Below are positions 13,934 to 23,442 of a stretch of 23,442 nt of DNA, one piece after another. The DNA is from a virus. The stretch spans positions 1 to 23,442 of IMG/VR virus record IMGVR_UViG_3300020578_005189. One strand, written 5' to 3'. The position numbers and the translations under genes are program-made. The stretch's first letter is position 1. Each line of letters opens with the position of its first letter. The notes under the pieces are model-generated. The model searched no databases. It was not told where the DNA came from and worked only from the letters and a program-made list of their open reading frames with translations.

Positions 13934-14100
13934 AAATGAAGACGGCAGTCGGTGAGCCGGAAGGTGAGAAGGTCTCGTACTGCCGCTACATGTCTTTGGC
14001 TCTGGCCGTATGTGAAAAGAGGCATGTTTCGTTAGACTCTGCGCTGCAGATGACGCTGATTGAGGCGTACCAGGCACTGGGAGCAGAGGTCTATGTCTAG
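13930..14100 (+). CDS. Second tail chaperone ORF (lambda T-like), expressed by -1 frameshift as 229-aa fusion
   Basis: This frame is open from 13858 to the TAG at 14098. Slippage at 13867-13873 would give 154 residues of the upstream chaperone followed by 75 residues of this frame, a 229-aa GT-type product ending VYV. The ORF also has its own ATG at 13930 overlapping the upstream stop as ATGA (56 aa), but with only a weak ribosome binding site (GGAAAA about 15 bases away), so frameshifting is the better explanation. Its last 8 bases overlap the tape measure start. In lambda the GT fusion is the form that engages the tape measure. Confidence 0.8.
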   Translation: MKMKTAVGEPEGEKVSYCRYMSLALAVCEKRHVSLDSALQMTLIEAYQALGAEVYV

Positions 14101-17100
14101 TGGTGGCGGCCCAACATTGATGGACGTGTTCGTCGGCGTGAAGCCCGACCCACAGTTCATGCAGCAGATTGAATCGAACTTTGGCGAAGCGAGAAACAAA
14201 ATCCGCCAGATGTTTGAGGGCATCCAGACGGACGCCGGGCAGGCTGCTGCAAATGCGATGGTTTCGAGACTGCAGGAGATCAATCGACTGCTGCAGGACA
14301 TGGAGGCTCGGGCCGATCGTCTGAGGCAGGATATCGGCAGGACTGATGGTGGCGGTGGCGGCCCTCGCAGAAGGCAGCGTGGCGGTGGCGGCGGCGGCGG
14401 TGGCACTGGCGGTGGTGGCACTGGCGGTGGTGGCGCTGGCGGTGGTGGCGCTGGCGAAGAACCGCCAGACGATCTGGCTCAGCGGCTGCGGGTGGCCACG
14501 GATGAGTTTAACCGCCTGAGGCGAGCAACTGAGCCGCGGCTGAGGCTGGTTGGCGATGACGATCTAAACCGTCGCCTTCAGAATCTCGTTTCGAATGTTC
14601 AGGAGGCTCAGGCTGCATTCCGGCTTCGCGATGTCCCAGAAAGCCAGTTTTTTGATCGTGGCGAGCAGCAGATCGAGCGGGTGATTGCTGCCACTCGCAG
14701 ACTGCGAACAGGGTTGCGCCCGGCTCTTGAGACGCGAGCCACTGAGGCTGGTTTGTTGCCGGCAGATGCGGCGAACAGAGCGGATATTTCACGGACAGTC
14801 AAGCAGCAGTTTCGTGAGATCAGGCAGGAGTCCGGTCGGCTGCGAAACGAGTTCGAGGGGATCGCTCAGGCTGCTTCAAGACTGGGCCCGCAGGATATTG
14901 CGCTGAAGGAGCGATTGGGGGTTGCAAGATCACAGTTCAAGGTTTTGCAGCAGGAACTGAAGGATGCGATCGCAAACGGCAGTCTGCAGGGGGCTCAGCA
15001 GGCTCGAGACAATATCCGATCGTTCCTGAGCGGGAATGTACAGGCGGTTGGTTCATCCCCTGCAACGCCCGGATCATTCATTGGCGGATTGGGCGCTGAG
15101 ATCACGGGAGCAGCCTCAGGCCGGACTCAAAGGCAGCAGGCGCTCACTGGTATCGGGGATCTGGAGGCACAGTTTGAGGAACTGCGATCTCTGGGCAGTA
15201 AGTTTGCGCAGTTGTCGAGCACTTCAAAACTGAACATTGAAAATATCCGCCTGGCGTTCGTCGACCTGCGAGCGGAGATTGAGCGAGGAATTGAAGTTGA
15301 TCCGCTGCGAGTCGGAATGCTGCAGACTCAGATTTCGAATCTGCGAGGTTTAGTAAATCAGCGGATGGAGGCTTTGGTCAACCCGGCAGACGGTGTTGAG
15401 TCTGCGATAAATAGGGCACAGAATTTAGTCAATGAATCACAGAACAAGTCAAAACTCAAGGGAGCGCAGGTCTTATCATCACTGGCAGGTGTTAGCGGCG
15501 AAGATCGTCAAACATTGCTGAAGATCAAAACACAGCTTGAGGAAGCTATAGCTGAATACAAAGTTGCAAGGCAATCTTTCTTTGATGCTGTAGATGAAGC
15601 ATCGTCTATTAAGGCTGTTGCGCGAGTAAGAGATACGGCAGCAGAAGTGAACACAATTGCAAGTAATGCCAGCGCCAGAATGGACGAGATCTCACAGAGC
15701 AGGCTGAGAAATTTCAACGCCCTGTCCAACAGCGCCTACCAGCTCGGTCAGGCGTTCGAGGATGCAGCGATCGGATATCAGCTAAACGGGCTGGCCGGTG
15801 CGCTGCGAGGTGCGGCGAACAACATCTCGTTCGTGGTGAATAATCTTGCGCAGGCTCCAGCGATTCAGGATTCCATTGCGAGGCGGTTCGGCATTGCCGG
15901 GGCACTTGGCAGAGACTTGGTTGGAATCACGACTGGTATCGGTGCCGCACTGGCAGTCACGGTGCTGCCACCAACGGTCGAATGGCTGGAATCGCTGAAC
16001 GACATTGAACTGGAACTTGAGGACATCTCTGAGCGGTACTCTGAGATCGTTGGCAAAACAGAGCGACAGGTGAAGCTGAGCCTGGAGACGCAGCAGTTCA
16101 CTCGAGGGGTTGCACGCGCTGACAATTTTCGAGCTGTGCTGGATTCGCTGGATGATTTGCGAGAGAAGGCTCAGGATACGCGAATCGAAATTGCAGAGAC
16201 AGTCGATGGGCTGGCAAACAGCGGCGCGTTTGCAATTCTGAAAACCCAGTTTGATTCGATCAGCAAAGGCATCGACACGGTTATCGAAAAGTACCGCAAA
16301 CAAGCGGAGTTTTTGCGTCAGCCGAGTCTGATGCCGCTTGGTGCTCCTGATGGTCTTTTCAGTCCAGATAAAGTTCTCCGTGCTCAAGAAAAACCTTTAC
16401 TTCAGTTTCGGGCAACACGAGATGCTATCGTTTCGCAAATTGAAACGATTCAAAGAAGTAGTAGGGATTTCCCTGTTGCTCCAGAGTCTTTTGATAATGC
16501 CAGAAAACTCCTAAATAAGTTGCAGGACGATCTGAAGGCGACGATTGGCAGAGAGGACTTTGCAGACTTTTCAGGGCCAGCAAAGGATGCTGCTGCGCAG
16601 CTTGAGGCAAACCTGAAGCCGCTTGACAAGACTCTTGAAGATCTACGCAATCGAGCCGAGGAATTCCGTGAACTCACAACCCGCCGGCTGACTGAGGGCA
16701 TCGAGGCCGCTTTGCGGCAGACCGAGGTGCTGCAGCAGCGGCAGTTGCTGATTCGTGAGCGACTGAGCGGGCGTGAGATCCCGGGCGGTGAGATGCTGCT
16801 GGATGTGGTCGAAATGTCGAGGGCGTATCAGGACCTGATCGACAAGCAGTTGAAGCTCTACGAGCGGGCTGGGATGGCACGGCAGGATATCGAGCGGGTC
16901 CGGGCATCGCTGCAGCGGCAGGCCGATCTGGAAGTCGGGAACCAGTCTCTGGAGCAGCAGGCCGACATTCTGGAGCAGATCCGGCAGGCTGAGGAGCGGA
17001 TTGCGGAACTGCAGGGACGCCGGCGGGACGCGAGATCGCAGAACATCAACTTTGATTCACAAATGACAAAGCTGCAGGAAAACGCGCTTAGTAAGACCGA

Positions 17101-17545
17101 CGACAACACGAAGGCCCTAAAGGACGTGAGGAAGGAACTGCAAAATCTGAATGTTCGTCTGGTGAAATTGCAGGCGTCCGATTTGATCCGGAACCAGCTG
17201 AGTTTCCTTCAGGGAGAACTGGGGCAGACATCGGAGGACCCGCGGATCCCGGGGGCTGCTCAGCAGGCGGCCAGAATGCGGGAGCAGATCAACATGACTC
17301 GCCAGTTGGAAATGTTCCTGCCGGGATTCAATCCAGTTGTGCCGGGGCGTGGGGCGTTTAGTATGCCGGTGATGGCTCCCGGTATCGGGCCGACAATGGG
17401 TATGACTGAACTGGTGCTGCGGAATACTGTGCTGGACGGCTTCAGTATGCTCATGCAGTTTATGACCCAGACTGAGATCGGCCAGAAAATTCTCGGTGTT
17501 CAGGAAGCGATCAAACAGAAAGATGAGCGAGCGAGGGTGAACTGA
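14093..17545 (+). CDS. Tail tape measure protein, 1150 aa
   Basis: The longest gene of the window, directly after the chaperones. It sets tail length and is ejected at infection. Residues 1-85 are helical; about 86-122 form a Gly-rich linker coded by 15-bp repeats; then follow long coiled coils rich in Leu, Arg, Glu and Gln, a hydrophobic segment (about 601-632, ITTGIGAALAVTVLPP) as is common in tape measures, more coiled coil, and a Pro/Met-rich C-terminal region. No lysozyme or peptidase motif is seen. By the family rule of thumb of about 1.5 angstrom per residue, the tail would be near 170 nm. The ATG at 14093 has GGGAGCAGAGG upstream; the TTG at 14060 is rejected. Confidence 0.92.
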   Translation: MSSGGGPTLMDVFVGVKPDPQFMQQIESNFGEARNKIRQMFEGIQTDAGQAAANAMVSRLQEINRLLQDMEARADRLRQDIGRTDGGGGGPRRRQRGGGGGGGGTGGGGTGGGGAGGGGAGEEPPDDLAQRLRVATDEFNRLRRATEPRLRLVGDDDLNRRLQNLVSNVQEAQAAFRLRDVPESQFFDRGEQQIERVIAATRRLRTGLRPALETRATEAGLLPADAANRADISRTVKQQFREIRQESGRLRNEFEGIAQAASRLGPQDIALKERLGVARSQFKVLQQELKDAIANGSLQGAQQARDNIRSFLSGNVQAVGSSPATPGSFIGGLGAEITGAASGRTQRQQALTGIGDLEAQFEELRSLGSKFAQLSSTSKLNIENIRLAFVDLRAEIERGIEVDPLRVGMLQTQISNLRGLVNQRMEALVNPADGVESAINRAQNLVNESQNKSKLKGAQVLSSLAGVSGEDRQTLLKIKTQLEEAIAEYKVARQSFFDAVDEASSIKAVARVRDTAAEVNTIASNASARMDEISQSRLRNFNALSNSAYQLGQAFEDAAIGYQLNGLAGALRGAANNISFVVNNLAQAPAIQDSIARRFGIAGALGRDLVGITTGIGAALAVTVLPPTVEWLESLNDIELELEDISERYSEIVGKTERQVKLSLETQQFTRGVARADNFRAVLDSLDDLREKAQDTRIEIAETVDGLANSGAFAILKTQFDSISKGIDTVIEKYRKQAEFLRQPSLMPLGAPDGLFSPDKVLRAQEKPLLQFRATRDAIVSQIETIQRSSRDFPVAPESFDNARKLLNKLQDDLKATIGREDFADFSGPAKDAAAQLEANLKPLDKTLEDLRNRAEEFRELTTRRLTEGIEAALRQTEVLQQRQLLIRERLSGREIPGGEMLLDVVEMSRAYQDLIDKQLKLYERAGMARQDIERVRASLQRQADLEVGNQSLEQQADILEQIRQAEERIAELQGRRRDARSQNINFDSQMTKLQENALSKTDDNTKALKDVRKELQNLNVRLVKLQASDLIRNQLSFLQGELGQTSEDPRIPGAAQQAARMREQINMTRQLEMFLPGFNPVVPGRGAFSMPVMAPGIGPTMGMTELVLRNTVLDGFSMLMQFMTQTEIGQKILGVQEAIKQKDERARVN
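14399..14458 (+). repeat. Four 15-bp repeats coding a Gly-rich linker
   Basis: Four units of GGTGGC(A/G)CTGGCGGT lie head to tail at 14399, 14414, 14429 and 14444, the last ending GAA. They encode GGTGG, GGTGG, GGAGG and GGAGE inside the tape measure protein. A less regular GGC/GGT tract lies just upstream (14347-14398). Such tracts are prone to slippage, so copy number may vary among relatives. Confidence 0.9.
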
Positions 17546-18687
17546 TGGGCCAGAACAACATGTGCAACGACTACACGGACTTCGTTGTGTTCGTGGAGGA
17601 GACTGGGGTTCTGCCATCGTTTGATGGCAAGTCTTTGGCAACGTCTCGCCGGTTTCTCGTTCCGTGTGCGTTTGCTGAAGAATTTGCACTGCGGATGATC
17701 GGCAAGTATTGGAAAGACACCGTTTACACCACGCCTGTGCTGCCCGCAGAGTACCCCTATGATCCATCTGCGCAGACTCAGCCAGTTTCGCGTCAGCTGA
17801 AAATGGTTGCAATGCGGTTCCGGCAGGAGCCTGTTGAAAAAGCGTGTTTCAATGTACTCTACCCAGACCCACGCGATCAAGATCATCCGCTGATACAATG
17901 CGTGACAGATCCGACCAACGCAGCGCAGATGGAGAAGTATTATCCTGTTGCGTGGCCCGAAGGAGACGAAAACGGGCAGCTTGTTTCCGGTAATTGCGGT
18001 TGCATGTGTGCGGTGGTAATTGAGTACGCGAGCCCCCCGTGGCAGTGCATTGGCCCAGTTGCTGACACAGAAGTTCCGCATCTCGAGGAGCTGGAAGACA
18101 ACACGGCGATCAGTGTCCAGAGGAACCCTGGGTACGAACAGTACACACTTCCAAACAGACATCTGCAATGGGCCATTGATGATCTGCAAAACAAGCAGCT
18201 CGACGGAGAAAGCTACGCGACAATCATCGTGCCAACGGCTGACATCGTAGTGCGATGGTACAATGTTCCCGTCAAAAAGTTGTGCGACATCGAAGTGTTG
18301 CTGGCCAGCTACCGCGGGCATGTGAACTCGGAATCATTCGACGTTCTGAGCAAATGCCTGTGCGCGACTTCAGAAACCTGCAACTGTGCGTTTGATCCTG
18401 AAACTGTGATGTTCATTGAGTGGCAGGAACTGGAGCAGGACCGAACAAGCGGTTTCCACCCTGACATGAACACGACGACTCTTGAACTGCATTACAAACA
18501 GAAGCGTATTGTTGTGAAGCCGGAAGAAGGTGAAACACCAGCCATGGTGGTTGGGCATAACCACCTGTTCACAGACAAAACTGTTGATGACTATGCGTGG
18601 CAGCGTGTGCTGCGAAAGAAACCTGCCGGGCAAACGGAAAATCTGTATCCCGGAAAAGACTTCAACGACATGTTCAAGGTGCCATAA
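17545..18687 (+). CDS. Tail protein, 380 aa, function unknown
   Basis: The ATG overlaps the tape measure stop by one base (TGATG) with GAGGGTGA 6 bases upstream. Position immediately after the tape measure suggests a distal tail or tail-tip component. Residues 1-130 are mixed alpha/beta; a Cys cluster CGCMC lies near 152-156 and another, CLCATSETCNC, near 272-282, so metal or disulfide cross-links are possible. Beta-rich segments (ATIIVPTADIVVRWYNV and TTTLELHYKQKRIVV) fit a tail structural fold. I do not recognise a family motif, and the tail-tip role is inferred from gene order. Confidence 0.75.
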   Translation: MGQNNMCNDYTDFVVFVEETGVLPSFDGKSLATSRRFLVPCAFAEEFALRMIGKYWKDTVYTTPVLPAEYPYDPSAQTQPVSRQLKMVAMRFRQEPVEKACFNVLYPDPRDQDHPLIQCVTDPTNAAQMEKYYPVAWPEGDENGQLVSGNCGCMCAVVIEYASPPWQCIGPVADTEVPHLEELEDNTAISVQRNPGYEQYTLPNRHLQWAIDDLQNKQLDGESYATIIVPTADIVVRWYNVPVKKLCDIEVLLASYRGHVNSESFDVLSKCLCATSETCNCAFDPETVMFIEWQELEQDRTSGFHPDMNTTTLELHYKQKRIVVKPEEGETPAMVVGHNHLFTDKTVDDYAWQRVLRKKPAGQTENLYPGKDFNDMFKVP

Positions 18688-19442
18688 TGCGTCCGTCTGA
18701 CTGGAAGCGTGGGGACCTGATCAGAACCGACCGGCTGAACGGCGTCACCAGTGAAGCGAGACTGGGCCGCCAGTCGGTTGTGGTGGGATCTGGCACGGCT
18801 ATTGTTGGCACGAATCATGGCGTTCGTGCGGCTCATTTCCAGAAGCAGGCAATTCATCTTGTTGAGGCGATCGAGGATTTTGCTTCCGGGTACATCACTG
18901 ACAATTATCTGGCGGCTGACGTAATCCCCAGCGGGAAATGCAGGCTGTTGCAGTTGGAGCTTACGACTGGCACCTATGCAATCGACCCTGCTACTGAACC
19001 GTTTGTTGTTTATGATCCGCTGTCAGTGATTGGCGACAGTGACTCGAAGGCAAGTGGTGACAAGTTTTACTGTGTTTGGAACAGAGACAATCAGCGGGCA
19101 GAAGTTGTCAGTGGTGGTGGCGGTGGCGCGAAAGCGATTTCTTTTGCGATCGTCTCAACAGACTACAGTAATCGGTCAGCTTTGGTCGAGATTCGCCAGC
19201 GGACGTTTTCGGGGCAGGTTTTTGGCTCAATCCTAGACGACACTGTGGTGACAGTCTATGACACGGATGGGTGCTTTCTGAACGAACCGAGTGTCGATTT
19301 GACTGGGCGGCTTGGAAAGGCCATGCTGTTCATAGTTGATGGTGAGGCAATCGATGCTCACTTCAAAGACGATGGCGATTATTCACCGAAGAAGTATTGG
19401 AACGTGTTCAATCTTTGCTGCCCACACAATGAGTGCGACTGA
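18687..19442 (+). CDS. Tail-tip or fibre-associated protein, 251 aa
   Basis: The ATG at 18687 overlaps the previous stop by one base (TAATG); the longer frame reaching back to 18597 is a shadow of the upstream gene. The N-terminal 35 residues are basic and polar, followed by beta-rich sequence with a Gly linker (SGGGGGAK near 143-150) that splits the protein into two parts. The second part (FAIVSTDYSNRSALVEIRQR, DDTVVTVYDTDGCFL) looks like a small beta sandwich. It ends NLCCPHNECD, again Cys-rich. No catalytic motif is evident. Probably part of the tail tip or adhesion device by position. Confidence 0.7.
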   Translation: MRPSDWKRGDLIRTDRLNGVTSEARLGRQSVVVGSGTAIVGTNHGVRAAHFQKQAIHLVEAIEDFASGYITDNYLAADVIPSGKCRLLQLELTTGTYAIDPATEPFVVYDPLSVIGDSDSKASGDKFYCVWNRDNQRAEVVSGGGGGAKAISFAIVSTDYSNRSALVEIRQRTFSGQVFGSILDDTVVTVYDTDGCFLNEPSVDLTGRLGKAMLFIVDGEAIDAHFKDDGDYSPKKYWNVFNLCCPHNECD

Positions 19443-21163
19443 TGGCTGTTCAGAAGGGCCGACAATGTGGAGGCTGCTGTTGCGGCGGATGCTCCTCGCC
19501 TCCGCGTGACCTGCGAGGCCCGACTGTTGGTGAACTTCCTCAGTTCTCGATTCAGTCGCTGTGCTGCAGTTGCCTGCCGAACCAGATCTGTGTGCAGATT
19601 GTTGAAGATGGGGCCTATGACGAATCGTGGGCCCACATTGAGCGAGCCTGCGATAAGATGCAGCCGGCTGGCGGTGGTCCGCTGCAGTTCTCAGGGAACG
19701 TCTGGTATGACGGCGAACTGCATTTGTTTAACTTGTATCTCGAATTGAGGCCGGACGGAAACAGCCAGGTTTGCTGGGTGTTGTGGGAAATCGATTCGCT
19801 GGGCTGGTCTGGCGAGAAACTGATCAATCACAACCTGCTGACGACATCCTACGATTGCGATTTGCGGATGAAGTCTGAGGACTGTGCCACCTTTGGCGGC
19901 GAGTGGCAGGTGACTGAAGCAATCACGCTCATAATCTCGACTCCAGAAACTGTTGATTTGGCGGAGGCCGTCGAGTGTGGTGGTTGCGGTTGCGTGTGTG
20001 ACTGTATTTGCCTGTCGATCTGGTCACGGGATGCGGCTGAGACGATCGAGTTCACGGGCCAGAATGCGATTGTGTGTGCGCAAATCGATGATGGGATGCG
20101 ACAGATCTGCGCGGCTGGCGATCCGCTGAAGCTAGGCGGATTTGTGTTTTGGGAGCTGGATGGATGGCAACTGCGGATTAACGGTGGAACGATGGTCCCG
20201 CCTGACAGCTTTACGCTGATTGCTGGAACCAGCACTCTTGCCTGCAATTTGCAGGACACTCTGACAGTGATCGACGAGTGGGAACATTTGATTGACGCGA
20301 CCGCAGGCGGTGCAGCGGAGGTTGAGTATCAATGGGATATTGACGATCGCATGGCTCGCAGACTGCAGTGGGCCGGGATCTCAAATGGCAACCTATCAAA
20401 AACTGAATTCTTTGGTTGGAACTGGGCTACGAGTCAATGGGATTTGTTTGGCGAGATCGAAGGGCGTCAGTCCGGCCAGATTGAGCGTACATTCCGGCAA
20501 GATCTTTCTGATGACTTTACTGGCACCGGCGCGAATCTTGGCATAGTGAAGGTGAAGATCAAGTCCAGAACGGCACAGAGGCTGAGGAACGATCAGTTGC
20601 TTCTGCAGACAACAAGATGCTGTGAGATTGAACTGATACCACCATATTATGTTGTTCCTTCATCACCTCTTGAAAAGTTGAATCTGGCTCAGGTTGGGCA
20701 GTGTCCATCACCACACAAATTTTGGAATTTTACAGACACGTCAGGGATTGACTGGACGGTCGCCTTTGAGTGTTTGTGGTGTGGAGGGCGGTGTGGAACA
20801 TCAATTACATCCTGCTGCCCGAGGCCGATTCCAGCAGTAGTGTTTGCTGAGATTCTGATTGACTGCCCGCCGTGCGGGGCAGGATTGACTGTTCCACTGC
20901 AGAACATCAGTCCTTCAATTTGGGAGGGTGTTGGATTGCATTGCGGGAGTCCGTTGTCTGTTCGGTTTTCCTGCTCTGGATCCTCTTGGTATATTGAAGT
21001 TGAAGGAGCCGGGGCTTGCAGTTTCCGTGGTTTTGCAACAACGACAGACTGTGATCCTCTGAATGTGACATTCTCAGGCGATTTTTCTGGCGGCTTGGGA
21101 TGTTGTGGCACTCAGGAAAACGGCCAGAACGGTGCCCCAATTACGATTGTTGTGATTGAATGA
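19442..21163 (+). CDS. Very cysteine-rich tail protein, 573 aa
   Basis: The ATG at 19442 overlaps the previous stop as TGATG; a GTG three codons earlier is an alternative. About 38 of 573 residues are Cys, many in clusters: CGGCCCGGC (9-17), CCSC near 41-44, CGGCGCVCDCIC near 178-189, then CLWCGGRC and SCCPRP in the last third. Each cluster is followed by beta-rich sequence of about 100-180 residues, suggesting three modules each opening with a Cys knot. The end (GFATTTDCDPLNVTFSG, then ITIVVIE) is also beta-rich. It has no signal peptide. Position suggests an adhesin or tail-tip protein stabilised by disulfides or metal. No known family recognised. Confidence 0.75.
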   Translation: MAVQKGRQCGGCCCGGCSSPPRDLRGPTVGELPQFSIQSLCCSCLPNQICVQIVEDGAYDESWAHIERACDKMQPAGGGPLQFSGNVWYDGELHLFNLYLELRPDGNSQVCWVLWEIDSLGWSGEKLINHNLLTTSYDCDLRMKSEDCATFGGEWQVTEAITLIISTPETVDLAEAVECGGCGCVCDCICLSIWSRDAAETIEFTGQNAIVCAQIDDGMRQICAAGDPLKLGGFVFWELDGWQLRINGGTMVPPDSFTLIAGTSTLACNLQDTLTVIDEWEHLIDATAGGAAEVEYQWDIDDRMARRLQWAGISNGNLSKTEFFGWNWATSQWDLFGEIEGRQSGQIERTFRQDLSDDFTGTGANLGIVKVKIKSRTAQRLRNDQLLLQTTRCCEIELIPPYYVVPSSPLEKLNLAQVGQCPSPHKFWNFTDTSGIDWTVAFECLWCGGRCGTSITSCCPRPIPAVVFAEILIDCPPCGAGLTVPLQNISPSIWEGVGLHCGSPLSVRFSCSGSSWYIEVEGAGACSFRGFATTTDCDPLNVTFSGDFSGGLGCCGTQENGQNGAPITIVVIE

Positions 21164-23106
21164 ACTCACTTTGCGAATGTGCGGCGACTGGTTTTTGCTC
21201 AAGACATCAAATGTACAAGGGAGAGCAGCGTTTTGCTCACTGCCGTGGCGTCAGCAAAAGCGCAGACTGTGGACTAGCGTTTTGGAATAAATGGGAGCAG
21301 GGCCAACTGGGGGCGACGGCTCCGGCAAATCCCCAACTGAATCCTGCTGGGTTTTGTGATTCACTTTCAGAAGCACCGTATTCCACGATTGGTGATCAGC
21401 TCAAAGCAATCATTCAGCGTGAAACGGGAATTGAGATTCCCTGTGAGGCATGCCGACAGAGGATTGCCCGGCTCAATTCCATGAGTCGTGATGAAGCAAT
21501 GAATTCTGAGACACGACGGCAAATCGTTGATGAGATCTCACAGCAGGCGTCTGCAGGAGTCGGAAACTGGATTCAGCGTTTGGGCATTGCGTTTGACGCG
21601 ATGGCAGGAACCGGGTTACTGCGATCCAACATTGAGCGATGGTATGACGAAGCCGTGGATGCAGGGACAACAAACGTCAGCAAAACATCGGCGGCTGTTG
21701 CCGTAGTGGTGGCAAATAGGAATCAGACGGTTGTGGCTCCGCAGGCTCCCGCATGGGAGCGACCAGCCCGCAGAAAGGCCGGTGCTGAACAGGACAGGCT
21801 GCACAGAATTGCGGTGTCATCTGTTCCATTGAAAAGGCAGTGGCAGTGTGAATCTAGACCGAAGGTGAATTTGGTATATCATCTGTGGCCACGGAAAGGA
21901 TTATGGGAGCGGCATCTTCAAAGATTGCAGCAGTTGATTGCTTTGTGTGATGGCAGGGTGATTGTCGGTATTTCAACAGACGCTGAAACTGACCGATTTG
22001 AAGACGTTGCAGCAGCGGTTTGGCCTGCTCAGGATGGAAGAGTTCACTGGTTGCCAAGTGTGAATATTCGGCATAATCAGGGCATCTGGAGTCGCGGGGC
22101 GAGGTTTGGCGAGCTTCAGACCGCGATTCCAGCCATGGAGCTGCTCCGCGACCTGCCGGAGGATTCAGTGACTCTCTATGCTCACGGCAAGGGCATGCAA
22201 GATCATACCTTTAGGTCAAACGCTGTCAGGGTGTGGACGGACATCATGTACGAGTCGATAATGTTCCCGATCGATAAAACGATTGAAACAATTTCGTCAG
22301 GATATGAGTGTGTCGGAAATTTTCGCACGTTCGGTCTGCGTCCGCTAATGTGTTCGTACAAGTGGCACTACGCCGGGACGTTCTACGCTTTTCGTACTCG
22401 CGCTTTAGTGAATTCATCCGGCGTGGCTAAATATCAGATGCGATATGGTGGCACGGAAGCGTGGCTGGGAGATCACATTCGACCCTCAATGGCGGCCTGC
22501 GAATTTGCCGACAACAGTCCGATCATAAGACAGTACGACGATAATCTGATGACCGAGGTCGCCGGAGATTATCTGCGGTATGAGTCGATGCAGCATGGCA
22601 ACGGGCCGAAGCTCGAACAGCATCGGAGAGAGTGGGCGTGGTTTCTTCGCCAGGTTTCTGACGTGAAGAGCATGCTCATTATCGGCAGTCGCTTTGGTGG
22701 GATGGAACATCATTTGCGAAACGTGTTTGCAGAAATGCGTCTGGTGTCTGTTGATCTCGATCCAGATGCAACAAACAAAACAGACTGCTTAGTGATTGGC
22801 GATTCGCATAACTCTGAAATTCAGGATTTGCTTAGGAATCGTGGGCCGTTCGATGCCGTCTTCATTGATGGAGATCACACATACGACGGCGTAAAGCTAG
22901 ATTTTGAATTTGCCTGCAGCCTAAATCCTCGATATGTTTTTTTGCATGACATCACGAATGACATCTATCATCAGGCGACTGGATGCCAAGTTGAGAGGCT
23001 CTGGAAAGAGATTGTTAGCGATGCGGGATCCCTTGGATGGGCAACAGATTCATTTGCTGTCGGCTGCGGGTGGGGAGGGATTGGCAAAGTCATTTTTAGG
23101 GCATGA
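21160..23106 (+). CDS. Fusion of Cys-rich, glycosyltransferase-like and SAM-methyltransferase domains, 648 aa
   Basis: The ATG overlaps the previous stop as ATGA. Residues 1-100 carry two Cys groups (CECAATGFC-x14-C near 5-28 and CEAC at 95-98), a possible zinc-ribbon-like or disulfide region. A linker of about 100 residues follows. Residues about 235-470 look like a glycosyltransferase-type Rossmann fold (VNLVYHLWP start, VTLYAHGKGMQDH near 337-349, HYAGTFYAFRTRAL near 403-416). Residues about 500-605 match class I methyltransferases of the Methyltransf_24 type: SMLIIGSRFGG (504-514) as SAM loop, SVDLDPD (530-536) and FDAVFIDGDHTYDGV (564-578). The product could glycosylate and methylate a surface glycan or virion protein. 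The methyltransferase call is strong, the glycosyltransferase call moderate. Confidence 0.75.
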   Translation: MNSLCECAATGFCSRHQMYKGEQRFAHCRGVSKSADCGLAFWNKWEQGQLGATAPANPQLNPAGFCDSLSEAPYSTIGDQLKAIIQRETGIEIPCEACRQRIARLNSMSRDEAMNSETRRQIVDEISQQASAGVGNWIQRLGIAFDAMAGTGLLRSNIERWYDEAVDAGTTNVSKTSAAVAVVVANRNQTVVAPQAPAWERPARRKAGAEQDRLHRIAVSSVPLKRQWQCESRPKVNLVYHLWPRKGLWERHLQRLQQLIALCDGRVIVGISTDAETDRFEDVAAAVWPAQDGRVHWLPSVNIRHNQGIWSRGARFGELQTAIPAMELLRDLPEDSVTLYAHGKGMQDHTFRSNAVRVWTDIMYESIMFPIDKTIETISSGYECVGNFRTFGLRPLMCSYKWHYAGTFYAFRTRALVNSSGVAKYQMRYGGTEAWLGDHIRPSMAACEFADNSPIIRQYDDNLMTEVAGDYLRYESMQHGNGPKLEQHRREWAWFLRQVSDVKSMLIIGSRFGGMEHHLRNVFAEMRLVSVDLDPDATNKTDCLVIGDSHNSEIQDLLRNRGPFDAVFIDGDHTYDGVKLDFEFACSLNPRYVFLHDITNDIYHQATGCQVERLWKEIVSDAGSLGWATDSFAVGCGWGGIGKVIFRA

Positions 23107-23187
23107 ACGGTATCTGCTGCACTATGTGGGCGACAGGCCGGGCGATCTGAGTGTAATTTTTAAGGCAATCAAACTGGAGCCCGTTAA
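23107..23187 (+). other. Short spacer with two weak micro-ORFs
   Basis: This 81-base interval between two sugar-transfer genes contains no convincing gene. An ATG at 23103 (ATGA overlap) opens a 15-codon ORF ending at 23150. A different frame with only TTG/GTG starts (23081 or 23126) ends at 23191, overlapping the next ATG as ATGA. Either could be a coupling leader. The GGAG at 23176-23179 is the likely ribosome binding site of the gene at 23188. Confidence 0.3.
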
Positions 23188-23442
23188 ATGATCGGGATTA
23201 TTGCCACGACGGAGTTCTCAGATCTGCTGGAAATTACACTGCCGTGGAATCTGCAGGTGCTGGAACAGGTGCTGGTGGTCACGCATCCCGAGGATCAGCT
23301 GACGATCGATGTGGTGTCGAAGTATCCGCAGTGTGAGTTGCTGCTAACCGAGGTGTTCCGGGAAAACGGCGCGTACTTCAACAAATGGGCTGCGGTCCAG
23401 ATGGGATGTGATTACGGGATCCGGCATCACAACTGGGCGTGC
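23188..23442 (+). CDS. Glycosyltransferase-like protein, N-terminal part, cut by window end
   Basis: The ATG has GGAG 8 bases upstream. The 85 visible residues begin MIGIIATTEFSDLLEITLPW and continue with VLVVTHPEDQLTID, ENGAYFNKWAAVQMG and a final HHNWAC. This recalls the N-terminal half of GT-A fold glycosyltransferases of phages and bacteria, in which a VVT-x-PED strand, an FNK-AA helix and then a Trp-x-x-hydrophobic-Asp-x-Asp metal site follow; the metal site would lie just beyond the edge. With the preceding gene it would form a glycan-modifying pair. The call is provisional because the catalytic part is missing. Confidence 0.6.
   Translation, partial: MIGIIATTEFSDLLEITLPWNLQVLEQVLVVTHPEDQLTIDVVSKYPQCELLLTEVFRENGAYFNKWAAVQMGCDYGIRHHNWAC

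Follow-up and report, generated by a model that had tools for sequence, protein, structure and literature searches.

A three-part fusion of Cys-rich head, glycosyltransferase and methyltransferase in a viral tail module, with relatives in phages and bacterial injection systems

A fusion gene where the tail genes end

The window analysed here is a 23.4-kb virus fragment (IMG/VR record IMGVR_UViG_3300020578_005189, 23,442 nucleotides), in which one open reading frame (ORF) of 648 aa joins a Cys-rich head, a GT-A-fold glycosyltransferase (GT) domain and an S-adenosylmethionine (SAM) methyltransferase (MT) domain. This fusion gene (21160..23106, ATG start), its parts, and the tail-module and GT-like genes around it all lie on the plus strand. 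In GTGATTGAATGAACTC, the ATG of the fusion begins at 21160, one nucleotide ahead of the TGA (21161-21163) that ends the gene for a 576-aa Cys-rich protein, forming an ATGA start/stop overlap (21160..21163), so that translational coupling of the two genes is plausible. Full-length homologues share 31-44% identity with the fusion, and nine columns of the GT domain are invariant across 55 sequences; therefore, the fusion is not a chance arrangement.

The revised domain boundaries place the head at residues 1-171, a linker at about residues 172-205, the GT domain at 234-455 and the MT domain at 486-646. An AlphaFold2 model of the whole fusion, based on a 43-sequence alignment, reached a predicted local distance difference test (pLDDT) score of 88.9. 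Both enzyme domains scored mostly above 90 and the head was mostly helical, while residues 172-199 of the linker (21673..21774) were predicted to be disordered (pLDDT below 50). The fusion carries no membrane segment (19-residue hydropathy maximum of 0.93) and is thus not a typical gtr-type membrane glucosyltransferase. In sequence searches, PHROGs gave no match to the protein at E 0.01, and profile searches of the PDB gave no match for the GT domain and only sub-threshold matches to O-methyltransferases.

The GT domain (21859..22524), modelled alone, had a pLDDT of 93.8 and a predicted template modelling score of 0.92. Its best solved structures were GlcAT-P and ArnC (1v84 and 9bhc, Z 11.9 each), and Foldseek gave an E-value of 7e-6 against GlcAT-P. 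N302, E318, H342, W359, W402, H403 and E433 are among its invariant residues. No Pfam family matched the domain among the 43 aligned members; the family counts more than 100 viral members. In the tree, the window GT groups with those of the relatives L024/L089, L022 and L020 (L-numbers denote the loci of relatives), with SH-aLRT support of 95-97.

The C-terminal domain (22615..23097) is predicted to be a class I SAM methyltransferase with invariant D570, H596 and D597. Its fold matches TrmR (5zw3, Z 18.6) and the macrolide-sugar O-methyltransferases MycE (3ssn, Z 16.0) and SpnK (Z 15.4), but the latter two act on macrolide sugars, and a common fold is no proof of a common substrate. The Pfam family Methyltransf_24 (PF13578) matched the fusion just below its gathering cut-off (E 1e-4, 23.6 bits versus 26.3). 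At E-values up to 0.1 it was matched by 23 members of the 43-sequence alignment, and its cut-off was passed by L090 (35.7) and by the MT of L083 (37.8). The original prediction, made from the letters of the window, had proposed a single three-part protein in the tail operon, with a GT-like middle and a Methyltransf_24-type end. All of this is supported by the intact ORF, by the two predicted folds and by the overlap with the tail gene, even though the Pfam match itself stays below the cut-off.

The head has three parts. N1 (residues 1-70, 21160..21369) carries the pattern C-x-C-x5-C-x14-C, with Cys 5, 7, 13 and 28 invariant in 14 aligned sequences, and N2 (residues 75-112, 21382..21495) carries GDxLxxII...TG...CxxC...LN. 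The helical part NH (residues 113-171, 21496..21672) was modelled as helices 116-133, 137-149 and 153-171. Residues 1-112 contain eight cysteines, versus four across the whole GT domain.

The left part of the window encodes a terminase, a portal and a capsid-like protein, and the fusion begins where the tail genes end. These comprise a 1161-aa tape-measure protein gene (14060..17545; phrog_167, E 1.9e-4) and a 380-aa gene (17545..18687), both with homologues in L024, L045 and L089. They are followed by a 281-aa gene (18597..19442), whose C-terminal ~110 aa are kept just before the Cys-rich gene, and by the gene for the 576-aa Cys-rich protein itself (19433..21163; 38 Cys), the conserved upstream partner of the fusion. 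No sheath or eCIS_core match was found among the window ORFs scanned.

Downstream, a GT-like gene (23188..23442, 85 aa) is open at the window end. Its full-length relatives of 250-268 aa, which have a DSD motif, are 44-52% identical to it in L024, L089 and L045, and it is also conserved in L221. A second GT-like gene after the fusion, as predicted originally, is thus supported. For the L045 relative, Glycos_transf_2 gave a weak match (E 1.3e-3, under the cut-off). Between the two genes, a 36-aa ORF with a TTG start (23081-23191) overlaps the fusion end and closes in an ATGA overlap with the GT-like gene; it had no Pfam match.

Relatives in phages and exchange of the payload

Scans of viral and genome contigs with the single protein found no relatives. 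The family was opened by a degenerate DNA pattern for the motif H[FY][SA]GTF, followed by alignment-based scans, which yielded 69 viral and 28 bacterial loci, with more in later scans. L007 and L018 were rejected as chance pattern matches, since the matched frame encodes no family protein, and L036 was rejected as a member without MT, its ORF running off the contig.

Domain profiles identified the head-GT-MT order with an intact C-x-C-x5-C-...-C motif in the window and in five other lineages (L015, L020, L023, L027 and L028; 31-44% identity). In the first alignment, L015 was 44% identical overall to the window fusion, and L019, L021 and L022 are the same phage as L015 (identical). Neither of the two outcomes that would have spoken against the original prediction, a middle part lacking a GT fold or homologues whose parts are separate, unrelated host genes, was thus observed. 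The same order with a degenerate head occurs in L025, L026 and L030. Other members have head and GT but lack the MT (L004, L010, L050, L101 and L045), carry, besides head and GT, further sequence that was read by eye as GT (L038 and L040), or combine two GT domains with an MT (L035). In an 850-aa phage protein (L083:6138-8690), a GT of this family occurs together with Stealth_CR2 and Methyltransf_24, but the domain order differs.

The genomic context is also conserved. Many phages keep the order of a 380- or 286-aa gene, a 281- or 148-aa gene, the Cys-rich gene and then the fusion or head gene, and this last gene directly follows the 281-aa and Cys-rich genes in the window, L015, L020, L023, L047 and L050. 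Tape-measure genes are clear in L015 and L214, and the surroundings of L015 further include a lambda-like tail tube, an HK97-gp10-like protein and a LamG virion-type protein. In 33 of the 43 non-redundant cases, the head ORF comes directly after an ORF with 5% Cys or more, which as a rule is richer in Cys than any other ORF of the locus, a count that describes the family rather than an unbiased survey, as the loci were mostly found by head or GT searches. The exact 4-nt ATGA overlap with this ORF is present in 14 of the 43. The genetic coupling of the head to the Cys-rich gene is thus strong, and a docking role of the head is plausible.

What follows the head varies. Behind the Cys-rich gene, L211-L214 encode the head alone (183-212 aa), and their Cys-rich proteins share 58-61% identity with the L015 one. 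L218 has head and GT as two separate, overlapping genes, with the GT gene second; L055 has a head-like gene ahead of two GT genes, and L128 an unfused gene with the N1 motif ahead of a GT gene. N1 is joined to Mannosyl_trans3 in L224 and to DUF6171 in L228, and N1-N2 is joined to Pribosyltran, a phosphoribosyltransferase, in place of the GT in L221. Since related phages encode the head alone or with other enzymes, the GT-MT pair is an exchangeable payload. Stand-alone N1 proteins were also seen behind tail-module genes in L228, L232 and L227, with a DUF6171-like Cys motif at their end (tested for L228). Behind the head-phosphoribosyltransferase gene (L221:5794-7188) lies a putative radical-SAM gene, as read from its sequence.

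Further sugar or methyl genes accompany the family in several phages. Two GT-like genes come after the GT-MT gene in both L024 and L089, and a GT4 gene lies downstream of the fusion in L020. Behind the head-GT gene of L045 (L045:9092-11791), a methyltransferase, a 2-oxoglutarate-Fe(II) oxygenase and two GT-like genes stand in a row. In L023, a cytidylyltransferase-like gene (CTP_transf_3; L023:11688-12986) comes after a 192-aa gene, and a phage-encoded pathway to an activated sugar is possible. By eye, the 192-aa gene starts like MptE-like proteins.

Two of the loci, L089 and L101, are contigs of metagenome-assembled genomes of Planctomycetaceae, which suggests that the hosts are planctomycetes. 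Among 294 Planctomycetota genomes the GT family had four matches, two of them in genomes already known as carriers, and this rarity fits the expectation for a mobile element.

Injection systems and known glycosylation systems

Outside phages, L090-L104, mainly from Burkholderiales, encode the GT followed by the MT as in the fusion, at 26-30% identity. These bacterial proteins are about 1000 aa long and, as tested on L090 and L091, carry an MptE-like stretch and a GT1 (Glyco_trans_1_2) domain in front. DUF4157, the eCIS_core domain of extracellular contractile injection systems (eCIS), is present in 12 of 13 of these genomes, and coordinate comparison places GT-MT downstream of it in 11, either adjacent or no more than a few genes away. 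In seven, a sheath gene shares contig and strand with them and lies about 24 kb upstream. The one operon read in detail, that of Aquabacterium commune, runs through sheath, tube, hub, spike, baseplate J, AAA and eCIS_core to the GT-MT gene.

As in the window fusion, a GT followed by an MT is thus encoded at the end of a phage-tail-like gene cluster. Unlike the window fusion, the eCIS-associated proteins have no Cys-rich head and begin with MptE-like and GT1 parts. Moreover, eCIS are contractile, whereas the window shows no sheath gene. The spot directly behind the DUF4157 gene, at the operon end, is the typical cargo position of eCIS (PMC8213781). The main text of the same survey (Geller 2021) mentions no glycosyl- or methyltransferase enzyme, and a 2024 eCIS toxin paper mentions no methyltransferase.

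Among characterised proteins, the closest analogue of the fusion comes from chlorovirus PBCV-1: A064R (638 aa) combines two rhamnosyltransferase domains with a methyltransferase and builds the terminal part of a capsid-protein glycan (PMC9614988). Its domain D2 is an inverting, cation-independent alpha-L-rhamnosyltransferase outside the known GT families, with a relative in the planctomycete Lacipirellula parvula, and D3 2-O-methylates the rhamnose added by D2 (PMC9614988). In both viral proteins, a GT domain is directly followed by a methyltransferase. A064R, however, starts with a rhamnosyltransferase domain (D1), whereas residues 1-171 of the window protein form the Cys-rich, mostly helical head. 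PBCV-1 furthermore infects algae and its glycan is on the capsid protein. In BFVD, the window GT and MT are matched with E-values of about 1e-14 by two models, one of 445 aa and one, the unnamed M1IF74, that is as long as A064R (638 aa). A scan with distant GT members recovered no recognisable chlorovirus A064R.

Glycans on virion proteins are also known from mycobacteriophages, whose capsid and tail tube carry them, according to work cited in PMC12619734. This resembles our proposal in placing glycans on phage virion proteins. To our knowledge, neither a Cys-rich head nor a fused methyltransferase has been described in that system.

A proposed methyl-capped glycan and its possible acceptor

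Our best current idea is that the fusion helps to build a methylated glycan on tail proteins or on the host surface. The fusion would be a late, cytoplasmic enzyme of the tail module, and its head (N1-N2-NH) would link it with the tail, most probably through contact with the Cys-rich protein encoded just upstream. The GT-A domain would then add a sugar and the methyltransferase would O-methylate a hydroxyl of a sugar, resulting in a methyl-capped glycan, to which neighbouring GT genes could contribute other sugars. The most likely acceptor would be a tail-tip or fibre protein of the phage's own virion. That the fusion builds such a glycan and that a tail or virion protein receives it appears to us about evenly balanced.

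Several observations weigh against it. No DxD motif appears as a conserved column in the 55 GT sequences, in which the only conserved acidic columns are E318, E433 and, mostly, D451. DxD is usual but not universal in GT-A enzymes, and metal-independent GT-A enzymes exist. The head was originally thought to be reminiscent of the neighbouring Cys-rich tail protein, yet a profile comparison of residues 1-112 with the family of that protein (hhalign probability 0.2%) led us to reject homology. Docking on the Cys-rich protein thus stays plausible through the coupling of the genes, and not through likeness. The GT-MT genes of L024 and L089 occupy the same tail-module place without a Cys-rich head, so the head is not needed for this position. 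Conversely, L211-L214 with their head-only genes show that a tail of the head type can do without glycosylation, and the phosphoribosyltransferase of L221 means that the payload is not always glycan-related. What the analysis shows is the gene structure, the predicted folds of both enzyme domains, the kept domain order, the place in the tail operon, the coupling to the Cys-rich gene and the exchange of payloads; catalytic activity, the sugar, docking, late expression and the acceptor are inferred.

Instead of the tail, the enzyme could alter lipopolysaccharide or another host glycan during infection, as in superinfection exclusion or serotype conversion. Such roles are known for phage GTs, further GT, CTP_transf_3 and oxygenase genes lie downstream in several phages, and a GT family in only 4 of 294 planctomycete genomes is not simply a core host gene. 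Nevertheless, we consider a host-surface role unlikely, because the gene sits inside the tail operon and overlaps a tail gene rather than forming a separate lysogeny module, the protein lacks membrane segments, and a head stands behind the tail gene also where it carries no GT.

Another possibility is a virion-borne enzyme: fixed in or on the tail by its head, it would travel with the particle to the next cell and act there at the surface or inside. The constant head with its swapping payloads (GT, GT-MT, Mannosyl_trans3, Pribosyltran) would fit such carriage, and so would the cargo position of the GT-MT pair in eCIS operons (PMC8213781). Donor sugars and SAM, however, are cytoplasmic and not extracellular, and the eCIS proteins may equally be biosynthetic. 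Delivery by the virion thus seems rather improbable.

The GT could also place a sugar on a modified base of the phage DNA, as phage GTs that hypermodify DNA are known (cited in PMC12619734). Just before the terminase, the window encodes a protein (1243-2106) with a weak match to DUF1599, the nucleotide modification associated domain 1 (E 3.7e-4, below cut-off; phrog_1485, E 6e-20), which may point to modified phage DNA. This gene is 19 kb distant, and GT-MT goes with tail operons in phages and, in bacteria, with the eCIS, which contain no DNA, making a role in DNA hypermodification very unlikely. Least probable of all, head and enzyme would be functionally unconnected, with GT-MT a passing insert that happened to fuse to a tail gene. 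Each does occur without the other, GT-MT in L024 and L089 and the head in L211-L214. Yet fusion or adjacency of head and GT is seen across many distinct lineages, and the full order with an intact Cys motif recurs in five lineages besides the window.

More broadly, N1-N2-NH could be a general docking module that loads GTs, GT-MT pairs, mannosyltransferases and phosphoribosyltransferases onto tails of planctomycete-type phages, with eCIS using the same GT-MT pair. We regard this generalisation as tentative and rather doubtful. If true, phages and eCIS tail-like particles would share a system of enzymatic decoration or cargo that was not described before.

Tails of phages and eCIS are usually described as protein machines. 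That the head recurs after the same tail gene in many phages, by itself or joined to various enzymes, suggests an exchangeable tool for sugar decoration in tail-bearing viruses. The GT domain represents a large family for which Pfam has no model, and it may have a relative in a viral rhamnosyltransferase from a new family. A glycan-building enzyme joined to a head that goes with a tail gene, and found in both phages and eCIS, would make sugar decoration or enzyme carriage of tails directly testable, and either of these could affect receptor binding, stability and recognition.

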